A stretch of DNA of 64,000 nucleotides from Solitalea canadensis DSM 3403. GTDB taxonomy: Bacteria; Bacteroidota; Bacteroidia; Sphingobacteriales; Sphingobacteriaceae. Position 1 is the first letter of the stretch. Each line of letters begins with the position of its first letter. Location: assembly GCF_000242635.2 (NCBI RefSeq), contig NC_017770.1, forward strand, positions 1,686,669 to 1,750,668, given 5' to 3'. Below, in pieces: positions 12,394-34,277 of the stretch. The notes below the pieces were generated by a model, which was not told where the DNA came from, searched no databases, and saw nothing but the letters and a program-made list of their open reading frames with translations. The position numbers were made by a program, and so were the translations under genes.

Positions 12394-12395
12394 TT

Positions 12396-12576
12396 TAGAT
12401 GGGAGATATGAGATTTGAGATTCGAGACTTTTTGAATTTAATAAGTAACGTCTTAGAAATTGATGAGATTCTGAAGATAGGATTGAGATGTAAGACTTTC
12501 AAATCGTTAAGCAGGTCCAAAATCTCAAATCCCATATCTCAAATCTAACATCTCACATCTCAAATCTAACTCAAAT
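12396..12576. repeat. Inverted word-repeat element, word GAGATATGAGATTT
   Basis: The left arm, 12400-12431, reads GGGAGATATGAGATTTGAGA. The right arm, 12520-12575, repeats the reverse complement: AAATCTCAAATCCCATATCT and then three further ATCTCAAATCTAAC-like words. About 85 bases of unrelated sequence lie between. The same word set recurs at 20880-21055. It lies between two plus-strand genes, downstream of btuB, and its right arm ends at the start codon of the next gene. Confidence 0.8.
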
Positions 12577-20879: not shown

Positions 20880-21055
20880 TTTTGATTTGAGATGTGAGAT
20901 ATGGGATATGAGATATGAGATAAAACTAATAGGCTAATCTAAATCCTTCCATCTTGTTATCTCGAATCTTATATTTCGATGAGAGATTACTAATAGTTTA
21001 TTTTCCATTTAATTATCTCAAATCTCAAATCTAAATATCTCAAATCTATTTAACA
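20880..21055. repeat. Inverted word-repeat element, second copy of the GAGATATGAGAT word
   Basis: The left arm, 20884-20922, repeats GAGATGTGAGATATGGGATA and GAGATATGAGATAA. The right arm, 21013-21050, has TATCTCAAATCTCAAATCTA and ATATCTCAAATCTATT. About 90 bases lie between, one part of which reads ATCTCGAATCTTATATTTC. Words and mirrored layout match 12396-12576. It lies between two minus-strand genes, just after the S46 peptidase stop codon. Confidence 0.8.
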
Positions 21056-24731: not shown

Positions 24732-26003
24732 ATGAATTTTGAAAACACATTGAGTTTTGCCCAAAATTTGGATCAGCTAGATACATTACATTCATTTCGC
24801 AACGAATTCTTAATTCCAAAACATAACGGAAAAGATATTATCTACCTGTGTGGTAATTCTTTAGGTCTTCAACCTAAATCAACCAAAACGCAAATTGAAT
24901 CCCTATTGAATCAATGGGAGAATTTTGCAGTAGAAGGTTGGTTTACTAAAGGAGTTGAGTGGTTGCATTTTCATGAAGAAATGCAGCAATCTCTAGCTAA
25001 AATCTGTGGCGCTAAACCTGTTGAGGTTACTCCAATGAATAACCTTACAGTTAACCTTCATTTAATGATGGTTAGTTTTTACCGTCCGACAAAGCAACGA
25101 TATAAAATTCTGATGGAAGCCAGGGCTTTCCCTTCTGATCAGTATGCAATTGATAGTCAGGTTCAGTTTCACGGGTTTAATCCTGAGGACGCAATTATTG
25201 AAATGGAGCCTCGTGCTGGCGAATCGCTTTTAAGAACGGAAGATATTTTAGCTACAATTGATCAACATAAGGGTGAACTGGCTTTGGTATTAATGGGTGG
25301 TATTAATTACCTGACAGGACAGTTGTTTGATATGGAAGTAATCACCAAGCATGCAAAACAATATTCTATTACAGTAGGGTTTGATTTGGCACATGCAATG
25401 GGTAATGTTCCTTTAAAACTGCATGACTGGGGTGTTGATTTTGCCATGTGGTGTTCTTACAAGTATATGAATTCGAGTCCGGGAGGAATTAGCGGCATTT
25501 TTGTTCACGAAAATAATTTCAATAATAAAGAACTGCATCGTTTTGCCGGTTGGTGGGGTTATGAAAAGGATACCCGCTTTTTAATGACACGAAAGTTTAA
25601 ACCGGAGAGTGGGGCAGAAGGGTGGCAGGTTAGTACCTCGCAAATGTTATTGCTTGCTGCTCACAAGGCGTCTTTAGCTCTATTTGATCGTGCAGGTTTT
25701 GACAACTTACGTGCTAAAAGCGAATTGTTAACGGCTTACCTTGAATTTATTATTGACCAGGTTAATGCTAAGGCTGGTAAAATTCTGTATGAAATTGTAA
25801 CTCCTCGCGATAAGAAACAACGCGGGTGTCAGCTATCGATCATTGCTCATCATCCTGTGCCTAAAAAGGTTTTCGAAAAGTTAGTTGAAAATGGTGTTAT
25901 TGGCGACTGGCGTGAACCAAATGTGATGCGTTTTGCTCCGGTGCCGCTGTACAATACTTTTGAAGATGTGTATCGCTTCGGAGAGCTACTGCTTACTGTA
26001 TAA
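24732..26003 (+). CDS. kynU: Kynureninase
   Basis: A 423-residue PLP enzyme that converts kynurenine to anthranilate and alanine (or 3-hydroxykynurenine to 3-hydroxyanthranilate). YLCGNSLGLQPKS at 38-50, FDLAHAMGN at 217-225 and the PLP lysine Lys244 in CSYKYMNSSPGG are diagnostic. No other gene of the tryptophan-to-NAD pathway is in the window. The gene stands alone between a terminator and the large tandem array downstream, which begins about 10 bases after the stop codon. Confidence 0.93.
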   Translation: MNFENTLSFAQNLDQLDTLHSFRNEFLIPKHNGKDIIYLCGNSLGLQPKSTKTQIESLLNQWENFAVEGWFTKGVEWLHFHEEMQQSLAKICGAKPVEVTPMNNLTVNLHLMMVSFYRPTKQRYKILMEARAFPSDQYAIDSQVQFHGFNPEDAIIEMEPRAGESLLRTEDILATIDQHKGELALVLMGGINYLTGQLFDMEVITKHAKQYSITVGFDLAHAMGNVPLKLHDWGVDFAMWCSYKYMNSSPGGISGIFVHENNFNNKELHRFAGWWGYEKDTRFLMTRKFKPESGAEGWQVSTSQMLLLAAHKASLALFDRAGFDNLRAKSELLTAYLEFIIDQVNAKAGKILYEIVTPRDKKQRGCQLSIIAHHPVPKKVFEKLVENGVIGDWREPNVMRFAPVPLYNTFEDVYRFGELLLTV

Positions 26004-26012
26004 GATTTAGAT

Positions 26013-26364
26013 TAAACCATATAAGGCATATAAGGAATATATAAGGCTATTTCGCTTAGCTTTCGTGATATTTTATTAAACCATATAAGACATATAAGGA
26101 ATATATAAGGCTATTTCGCTTAGCGTTCGTGATATTTTATTTAACTATATAAGACATATAAGAAACATATAAGGCTATTTCGCTTAGCGTTCGTGATATT
26201 TTATTTAACCATATAAGACATATAAGAAACATATAAGACTATTTCGCTTAGCGTTCGTGATATTTTATTTAACCATATAAGACATATAAGGATATATAAG
26301 GCTATTTCGCTTAGCGTTCGTGATATTTTATTTAAACCATATAAGACATATGAGAAAATATAAG
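26013..26364. repeat. Tandem array of five 64-bp units
   Basis: Units begin with AACCATATAAGACATATAAG at 26015, 26079, 26143, 26207, 26271 and (partial sixth) 26335; each step is exactly 64 bases. Every full unit continues with a GGCTATTTCGCTTAGCGTTC block and then GTGATATTTTATTT. Units differ by a few substitutions; the fifth has one base fewer in one part and one more in another. The array runs straight off the end of kynU. 64 is not a multiple of three and there is no open frame, so it is non-coding. Confidence 0.95.
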
Positions 26365-26700
26365 ATAAACGACACGATACTTAAATGACCTTATATGTCT
26401 TATATGGTTTTAATAGATAAGATAAACGACGCGATACTTAAATGACCTTATATGCCTTATATGGTTTAAATAGATAAGTTAAACGATGCGATACTTAAAT
26501 GACCTTATATGTCTTATATGGTTTAAATAGATAAGATAAACGACGCGATACTTAAATGACCTTATATGTCCTTATATGGTTTAAATAGATAAGTTAAACG
26601 ATGCGATACTTAAATGACCTTATATGTCTTATATGGTTTAAATAGATAAGATAAACGACGCGATACTTAAATGACCTTAAATGTCTTATATGGTTTAAAA
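26365..26700. repeat. Tandem array of six 57-bp units, inverted to the 64-bp array
   Basis: The phrase GACCTTATATGTCTTATATG occurs at 26387, 26444, 26501, 26558, 26616 and 26673, with spacing of 57 bases (58 once, from one extra C). It is the reverse complement of the first 20-odd bases of the 64-bp unit. The remaining part, ATAGATAAGATAAACGACGC followed by GATACTTAAAT, is unrelated to the 64-bp unit. Units alternate between AAGATAAACGACGCG and AAGTTAAACGATGCG, so a two-unit block was duplicated. On the strand of queD, this array follows the queD stop codon just as the other follows kynU. Confidence 0.95.
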
Positions 26701-26707
26701 TAAAAAA

Positions 26708-27169
26708 TTATACGGTTATTCCATTGTCACTTGCAAACCACTCAGCAAACGATGTTGGAGTTTCGTGAAGCTTTAATGAATAGAGTTTAACATTATCCGG
26801 CAATCTCTTCATGATCCGGTTGGCAAAATCGGCAAGCATATTTTCGCAGGTAGGTTGGTAATCTGTTAAAAGAACACGTTCCATATGCTCCATAAGCTGA
26901 CCCGCCAATTTAATATGAGGTGAATTTTTGTTAAGCACAGTCGCATGATCAAAAATATCAACAATCTCAGTTTTAACGATCTTTTTCAGATCACCGAAAT
27001 CCATCACCATCCCGTTTTTTACATGCGTTGCATCATTAATTGCATCTCCAACCACTGTTACATATAATTCATAACTATGGCCATGCACGTTTCTGCATTT
27101 ACCGTCGTACCCGTATAAAGCATGAGCGGTTTCAAAGTTGAAATATTTGGTAATTCTTATTCTCGCCAT
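26708..27169 (-). CDS. queD: 6-carboxytetrahydropterin synthase / 6-pyruvoyl-tetrahydropterin synthase family
   Basis: A 153-residue protein. Zinc ligands His16, His29 and His31 (FETAHAL and NVHGHSYELYV) and the catalytic Cys25 in GKCRNVHGH are present, and the C-terminal LHETPTSFAEW holds the substrate-binding Glu. This is the QueD family, the second step of queuosine/7-deazaguanine synthesis from dihydroneopterin triphosphate. No other queuosine genes are near. It starts close to a divergent small gene. Confidence 0.9.
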   Translation of the reverse strand: MARIRITKYFNFETAHALYGYDGKCRNVHGHSYELYVTVVGDAINDATHVKNGMVMDFGDLKKIVKTEIVDIFDHATVLNKNSPHIKLAGQLMEHMERVLLTDYQPTCENMLADFANRIMKRLPDNVKLYSLKLHETPTSFAEWFASDNGITV

Positions 27170-34056: not shown

Positions 34057-34059
34057 TTT

Positions 34060-34225
34060 TTTGGTTCATGGTTCATAGATCATTGTTCATAGGGAGAATC
34101 AAGTCATTATTCTAAAACTATGATCCTTAATTAATGAACCATGAACTTTTATTAATGTTTATAGGTCTAAATTATGGTAAATTATTCATGAACTATGAAC
34201 CATGAACTATCAACTATGGATTAAA
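34060..34225. repeat. Inverted word-repeat element, words GGTTCATAG and CATGAACTATGAACC
   Basis: The left arm, 34062-34095, reads GGTTCATGGTTCATAGATCA and TTGTTCATAGGG. The right arm has ATGAACCATGAAC at 34135 and CATGAACTATGAACCATGAA at 34187 followed by CTATCAACTATGG. About 50 unrelated bases lie between, plus a spacer within the right arm. The element lies between two plus-strand genes. It shares words with 201-248. Confidence 0.8.
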
Positions 34226-34228
34226 GAC

Positions 34229-34258
34229 TCAGTACTCCCGACTCCCGACTCCAGACTA
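34229..34258. repeat. Short direct word repeat (ACTCCCGACTCCCGACTCC)
   Basis: GACTCAGTACTCCCGACTCC and CGACTCCAGACT repeat the word GACTCCC four times, just after the GAACTATG element and directly before hemF. It is a second word type in the same gap and lacks a mirrored arm. Confidence 0.5.
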
Positions 34259-34277
34259 TTTTTCCTATTTTTACCCC

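Follow-up and report, generated by a model that had tools for sequence, protein, structure and literature searches.

Facing tandem arrays between kynU and queD of Solitalea canadensis: possible members of a dispersed family of 3′-end palindromic repeats in Bacteroidota

Dispersed intergenic palindromes that favour convergent and tandem gaps are already known from the REP sequences (PMC3733652). REPs and the related BIMEs and REPINs are repeats mobilised by RAYT tyrosine transposases (PMC3733652, PMC2817692, PMC3116915). In the Bacteroidota, the BrickBuilt MITE of Porphyromonas gingivalis is composed of a 23-nt unit repeated without spacers, with an inverted-repeat leader and tail (PMC4596501). 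Short tandem words have also been described as heptamers: TAACTGA in Beggiatoaceae, Cyanobacteria and five Bacteroidetes, with a patchy distribution and no evident mechanism of spreading (PMC4679880), and GGGAATC-type heptamers in Xanthomonas and Nostoc (PMC4692102).

The family analysed here is recognised by the word CATATAAG. It resembles REPs and REPINs in consisting of dispersed intergenic palindromes, often opposed, in tandem and convergent gaps downstream of coding regions (PMC3733652), and it is likewise a many-copy intergenic palindrome biased to 3′ ends. In contrast to these repeats, which measure 20-40 nt and carry a GTAG or CGTC tag, its elements are 41-211 nt across and end in AACC...GGTT, no such tag being seen by eye; moreover, tandem AT-rich words form its arms, no RAYT link was found, and different hairpin families occupy one orthologous gap. 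With BrickBuilt the family shares the phylum, the intergenic position, the tandem units and the multiple copies, and the finding of its hairpin within MITE-like repeats recalls that element; compared by description, its arrays are, unlike BrickBuilt, mutually inverted and predicted to fold together (PMC4596501). Like the heptamers, it places short tandem words in intergenic gaps (S. canadensis contains period-7 arrays too), but its words follow one another in steps of 9-11 bp, within arms that are inverted and lie at gene 3′ ends, and its array periods are 64 and 57; TAACTGA in the Guaymas Maribeggiatoa genome forms direct repeats instead, most of which immediately precede a start codon (PMC4679880). 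As in intrinsic terminators, a hairpin directly follows the stop codon, and in one gap (AmpP, see below) an array occupies the place of the terminator-like sites of congeners; unlike them, the elements mostly lack a U-tract, have A+U-rich stems and form arrays. The CATATAAG family was not found in the open-access PMC literature by longer sequence strings or by topic; short 9-base strings recur in open-access papers, of which those judged by title look unrelated. What distinguishes the family from known repeats is that its arms consist of tandem words, that its arrays are inverted, and that unlike families are exchanged at one site.

The locus was studied in a 64,000-nt stretch of the S. canadensis DSM 3403 genome (contig NC_017770.1, positions 1,686,669 to 1,750,668), hereafter the window, whose numbering is used in Table 1. 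Inspection of this DNA had predicted two tandem arrays facing each other between convergent genes for kynureninase and a QueD-type PTPS. Both parts of the prediction were confirmed, the genes by their domains (PF22580/PF00266 and PF01242, respectively) and the arrays by TRF, core positions and shuffles. TRF identified two arrays, one of period 64 bp at 26011-26364 with 5.5 copies and 93% matches, the other of period 57 bp at 26360-26699 with 5.9 copies and 94% matches. The forward cores, which read AACCATATAAG-N-CATATAAG apart from single changes, start at 26015, 26079, 26143, 26207, 26271 and 26335, each step being exactly 64, and the reverse cores end at 26409, 26466, 26523, 26581, 26638 and 26695, in steps of 57, 57, 58, 57 and 57. 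The two periods therefore stand as predicted, but there are six cores on each side instead of five and six, and the exact spacing holds throughout the left array only, one right unit being one base longer. The shared inverted core is present and somewhat longer than had been stated, about 30 nt with a third degenerate word (by eye). When up to 2 mismatches are allowed, its 17-base form occurs 11 times in the window (100 shuffles: mean 0.03, largest 1); this count leaves out the core with the extra base. The array begins 9 bp past the kynU stop codon and ends 4 bp short of that of queD (limits by eye).

Table 1. Features of the kynU-queD locus (window numbering)
Feature	Position	Strand	Evidence and remarks
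kynU (kynureninase)	24732..26003	+	ORF; KYNU_C 5.8e-26, Aminotran_5 8.4e-12; ends ~9 bp before array
Left array of five units of 64 bp, with AACCATATAAG-N-CATATAAG (AACTATATAAG in one of them), third word and unrelated spacer	26015..26334	+	
Central 75-bp hairpin: sixth forward and first reverse core, AACCATATAAG...CTTATATGGTT	26335..26409	.	Fold of 26329-26415, z -9.3
Right array of the other five reverse cores, in 57-bp steps (one of 58), with two alternating unit variants	26410..26695	-	
kynU-queD gap, predicted single giant imperfect hairpin	26004..26707	.	Predicted fold
queD-type 6-pyruvoyl tetrahydropterin synthase gene, convergent with kynU	26708..27169	-	ORF; PTPS 1.7e-29

The right array alternates between two unit variants, as had been noticed: units 3 and 5 are identical, and units 2, 4 and 6 are 95-97% alike. 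The spacers are repeated together with the cores (whole units are 91-97% identical on the left and 93-100% on the right), and a CRISPR array was rejected on this ground. The claim that the remainder of the 64- and 57-bp units is unrelated also held, since their spacers show no likeness, direct or inverted (three scores, reached by 510, 368 and 609 of 1000 shuffles); homology of the whole units was consequently rejected, and the 69% match over 308 bases that BLAST reports between the arrays is put down to the arms. Each arm contains 2-3 words at steps of 9-11 bp (by eye). Words placed about one helical turn apart might recruit a nucleoid or regulatory protein, and the number and spacing of the words would suit such an array of binding sites. 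The second linker, however, varies between 2 and 3 nt. A core binding protein is also unlikely because neither three congeners nor 383 of 395 genomes of the phylum contain the exact word; we regard this explanation as highly improbable.

Folded as single-stranded RNA, the kynU-queD gap is predicted to form one continuous imperfect stem with an MFE of -235.6 kcal/mol (mean of 20 shuffles -125.5, z -22); the DNA fold has a z of -15. Because dinucleotide shuffles destroy the repeats, one array was turned round as an extra control, and the MFE was then -106.0 or -102.3 kcal/mol, depending on the array. This drop indicates that the opposed orientation itself makes the predicted structure, in which the facing arrays are the two arms of one giant DNA or RNA hairpin. 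A source of structured RNA, one of the roles offered in the original prediction, appears to be the best-fitting of them: the predicted fold pairs the arrays over nearly their full length, and several stem positions show covariation among related elements (see below). No terminator-like site was found within 25900-26800. No Rfam family exceeded its gathering threshold at the locus (MIR7993 reached 30.8 versus 100 bits), and in 13 further loci the only hit was MIR7993, again below threshold, in one of them (L201, 38.4 and 36.7 bits); a known RNA family was therefore rejected.

Whether units occur elsewhere in the genome had been named beforehand as a point on which the prediction might weaken; they were found at ten loci here and at many across the phylum. 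In the 5.2-Mb genome the exact 19-base pattern was counted 63 times; its reversed control and the three congeners gave none. Seven of the ten loci are convergent, two tandem and one, a single arm, divergent; in a comparison sample of 464 kb of the genome, 40 of 228 gaps are convergent. One of the seven convergent loci has a tRNA-Thr gene on its left, and in the six protein-coding ones the array edges lie no more than 11 bp from both stop codons (limits by eye). All nine multi-unit loci begin with a forward and end with a reverse core (at most 3 mismatches). The cores between them mostly alternate; the order FFRR was found in one locus and F6R6 in the window only. Forward and reverse cores are equal in number in four of the nine (the window, L019b, L022 and L024) and unequal in five.

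Three arrays of the genome (contig positions 969277-970090, 979790-980590 and 1331552-1332770) share a near-identical unit of about 79 bp including the spacer (by eye), which suggests that whole units, and not words alone, moved between loci. Word arrays of period 7 occupy other gaps of the window (12394-12576, 20884-21047 and 34057-34277; words AAATCTC, GATATGA, ATGAACT and GACTCCC) and have inverted partners (by eye). In the 464-kb sample, short-word arrays were present in 14 of 228 gaps (13 of period 7, one of period 6), and in none after one letter-shuffle per gap.

A further rival explanation is that replication slippage and unequal recombination worked locally on a hairpin that was old and ordinary, and that the resemblance to other loci is due to convergence on AT-rich words. 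The near-exact periods of 64 and 57 bp and the two-variant alternation on the right are what such a process would produce, and the variants of the left array do not mirror those of the right (by eye), as independent growth on each side would give. Chance is nevertheless ruled out by the frequency of the 19-base word relative to its reversed control (63 to 0) and by its recurrence across families of one phylum. Slippage thus accounts for growth, not for spread; it remains part of the growth, and as a full account it is improbable and largely refuted.

We compared five of the ten gaps with those of three congeners. In the AmpP gap all three have a terminator-like site; none is present in 946 bases of S. 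canadensis, which has an FR array there. The HSP70 gap of all three congeners is 60-62 nt long, with strong hairpins (z -5.4, -7.3 and -6.3) that are mutually unlike by eye. Between kynU and queD, hairpins of heptamer words were found in two congeners (z -4.3 and -3.5), and no kynU was seen in the 1.5 kb inspected by eye in the third. The epimerase gap contains other repeats in two congeners; in the third it lies between tandem genes, and no repeats were noticed there. The gap of L199 (1968-2880) and of L197 is packed with other repeats, including GTCTAGTATAC units and the TGAGCGGAGTCGAAGG type (by eye). In the PhnP gap only 1, 7 and 3 nt separate the convergent stop codons of the congeners, versus an array of about 800 bp in S. 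canadensis. Because the orthologous congener gaps that were seen have no arrays of this word, the earlier suggestion of a mutable locus appears plausible.

The PhnP gap, together with the absence of the exact word from the three congeners, favours the main rival explanation, namely a selfish, non-autonomous mobile palindrome (MITE- or REPIN-like) without host function, which would land anywhere and survive between convergent genes, where its insertion does least harm. We consider it a serious, if somewhat doubtful, possibility. It is weakened by those gaps in which the array takes the place that terminator-like sites or other hairpins have in relatives.

A pattern scan of 84,980 species genomes yielded at least 120 stretches, several of them from one genome, and 117 of 120 among the matches listed bear Bacteroidota names. 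The named carriers include Flavobacterium, Pedobacter, Paludibacter, Saprospiraceae, Runella and Cyclobacterium. The three exceptions among the matches listed (L057, L080 and L123) are metagenome bins with other labels; in L057 and L123 the exact word lies in bins labelled Kuenenia and Nitrotoga, which may be due to wrong binning of Bacteroidota contigs or to transfer. In an even sample of the phylum, the exact word was found in 12 of 395 genomes. S. canadensis has 63 copies and the next highest 8, an extreme copy number that also fits a selfish element; the other 11 carriers belong to one genus, which appears to be Flavobacterium, with 1-8 copies each. The distribution is thus patchy, with S. 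canadensis as the extreme of the sample, and the spread of the word over genome and phylum is well supported. A plasmid or phage vehicle was rejected, since blastn (E 0.01, low-complexity filter on) matched none of 72,556 plasmid records and none of 50,697 phage records. Viral contigs gave one exact match (L037), which lies within a 172-aa open reading frame and looks like chance.

The hairpin itself has inverted ends, and the PhnP empty site is without a clear target duplication (by eye). Some copies sit within other terminal repeats (L040/L130 and L044/L058). A MITE-like repeat of about 165 bp, whose terminal repeats read TTATACTTTAGAC...GTCTAAAGTATAA or nearly so, encloses the hairpin in L044, L058, L066, L144 and L009, and occurs in a Bacteroidia bin and in G037. 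A second, unrelated MITE-like repeat, from a Draconibacterium bin, contains the full hairpin in L040 and one arm in L048, L050, L065, L089 and L130. Its ends recall those of IS256, and in L065 and L130 it appears to be flanked by 8-bp target duplications (by eye). Copies within two unrelated MITE-like repeats, one of them with apparent target duplications, are in keeping with a selfish palindrome, but a search for transposases of the Y1_Tnp type (PF01797) tied none to the family. The genome has two such genes, and neither CATATAAG nor CTTATATG occurs within their 3.3-kb loci, so that a RAYT/REP origin was rejected. These two Y1_Tnp (RAYT-type) genes, L178 and L179, have their own, different palindromes alongside (by eye).

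Pairing of the arms was analysed in 74 elements. Ten MITE copies were set aside from 138 loci; among the 128 loci left, which have the exact word, 54 lacked a partner arm (within 220 bp, at most 2 mismatches); at least one place was counted twice (L157 and L208). Positions of the word pair by selection, and free positions do not. Free position 9 forms a Watson-Crick pair in 59 of 74 elements, with four pair types, against 30.5 in shuffles (reached in 0 of 500), and at positions 21, 22, 24 and 27 pairing exceeds all 500 shuffles; kinship among the sequences can inflate the results of these shuffles. Positions 18-20, 23, 25 and 28 showed no clear excess (30-214 of 500 shuffles), nor was there any from position -4 outward in the 74 elements. 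All 74 fold at z < -2 (median -8.4, dinucleotide shuffles), which is partly owed to the selection of two arms. Within the S. canadensis arrays the covariation test failed: position 9 was Watson-Crick in 11 of 42 cases, with 12 wobble pairs, below the shuffle mean of 21.3, because an asymmetric A/C type dominates there.

Orthologous gaps in Flavobacterium were examined in the best 30 of 60 and the best 30 of 81 genomes by protein match. The gap upstream of sufT, whose upstream neighbour varies, is only 1-8 nt long in 6 of the best 30 species. At least one exact CATATAAG word is present in 12 (both arms in 2, a single exact arm in 10), and the rest of the best 30 have CATTAAG pairs (4), ACGAATT pairs (2), a lone ACGAATT (2) or none of these (4). 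The gap upstream of the DUF6265 gene contains, among its best 30, pairs of CATATAAG (5), GCAGATT (12), ACGAATT (9), GGATTAAA (6) and GCAAAG (1), and none in 9, several word families being found together in some gaps. In three orthologues of this gap the arms match at 35-36 of 36 positions, the loops at 18-25 of 34-44 and the promoter side at 132-145 of 161-162; a fourth retains 32-33 of 36 in the arms and 78-86 of 161-162 in the adjoining sequence. The arms of L252 and L253 do not align (20-27 of 36-46), being located at another place in the gap. Arms that are kept while the loops drift argue against an element without host function.

Where unlike hairpin pairs share the DUF6265 gap, they are nested in 15 of 17 comparisons, crossing in one and separate in one (11 loci; as orthologous gaps of one genus, the comparisons are not independent). 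In L259-L275, the 400 nt upstream of the DUF6265 start display concentric nests; in L264 and L265, ACGAATT surrounds GGATTAAA, which surrounds GCAGATT. A bolder proposal, which we think unlikely, is that Bacteroidota actively write interchangeable tandem-word hairpins at gene 3′ ends, the new ones into the loops of the old, and that the six-plus-six array of the window arose by repeated nesting of one family. Such nesting would yield equal numbers of forward and reverse cores. Simple concentric nesting, which predicts mirror-image unit variants, was rejected, as none were seen in the window (by eye).

The position of the elements relative to genes was determined for 98 of 124 clusters, contig-edge (14), intra-ORF (4) and MITE-copy (8) clusters being left out. 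Of these, 23 were convergent, 68 tandem and 7 divergent, against 14.5, 58.1 and 25.3 expected by gap length (chi-square p 5e-5; genes were called by a simple ORF rule, and clusters of one genome are not independent). Under a laxer ORF rule, used in an earlier pass, 24 clusters were convergent, 69 tandem and 11 divergent, with 11 inside ORFs and 9 at edges. Most tandem clusters (49 of 68) lie closer to the upstream stop than to the downstream start, and 52 of the 91 tandem or convergent clusters are located within 25 bp of a stop codon, whereas placing them at random within their gaps gave 37.5 (the highest of 200 placements being 47). The elements are therefore enriched near gene 3′ ends and depleted in divergent gaps. 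At least five T in the 8 nt after the stem were counted in only 8 of 74 elements (14 of 74 on the other strand), and at least five A in 44 of 74. Since most elements have no U-tract, they are not canonical terminators, and an intrinsic terminator was also rejected for the locus, with 0 sites.

The 3′-end position of the elements, their kept pairing and the replacement of terminators or other hairpins at the same sites suggest a role at 3′ ends. We rate it as roughly an even chance that the kynU-queD locus is one array of a dispersed family of Bacteroidota palindromic repeats that serve as, or replace, 3′-end hairpins. The repeat unit would be a hairpin with arms of 2-3 tandem CATATAAG words, bounded by AACC...GGTT, that reaches new sites by copying; where congeners have none in the same gap, it was most likely copied in, and the MITE-like repeats that carry it in other Bacteroidota are one possible vehicle. 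After its arrival it would have multiplied locally, since local duplication is evident from the regular periods and the alternating variants; in the window, both halves of the central hairpin would have multiplied to six cores each, giving a very long stem. Transcribed from either side, the hairpin could form the 3′-end structure of both convergent genes and block 3′ exonucleases, transcription that runs on into the opposite gene, or both. Any stable hairpin could perform this task, so that families would be replaceable at one site. As a U-tract is missing in most elements, they may protect ends left by another termination route, or be tolerated there.

If this is true, the ends of genes in a large bacterial phylum are equipped with modular hairpins that often persist as such, although close relatives differ wholesale in the sequence used, and sequence conservation would overlook a class of 3′-end elements. 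The natural swaps, from a terminator to an array or from a near-zero gap to an array, would allow the effect of a hairpin on convergent transcription to be measured. It would also raise the question of what copies these words.
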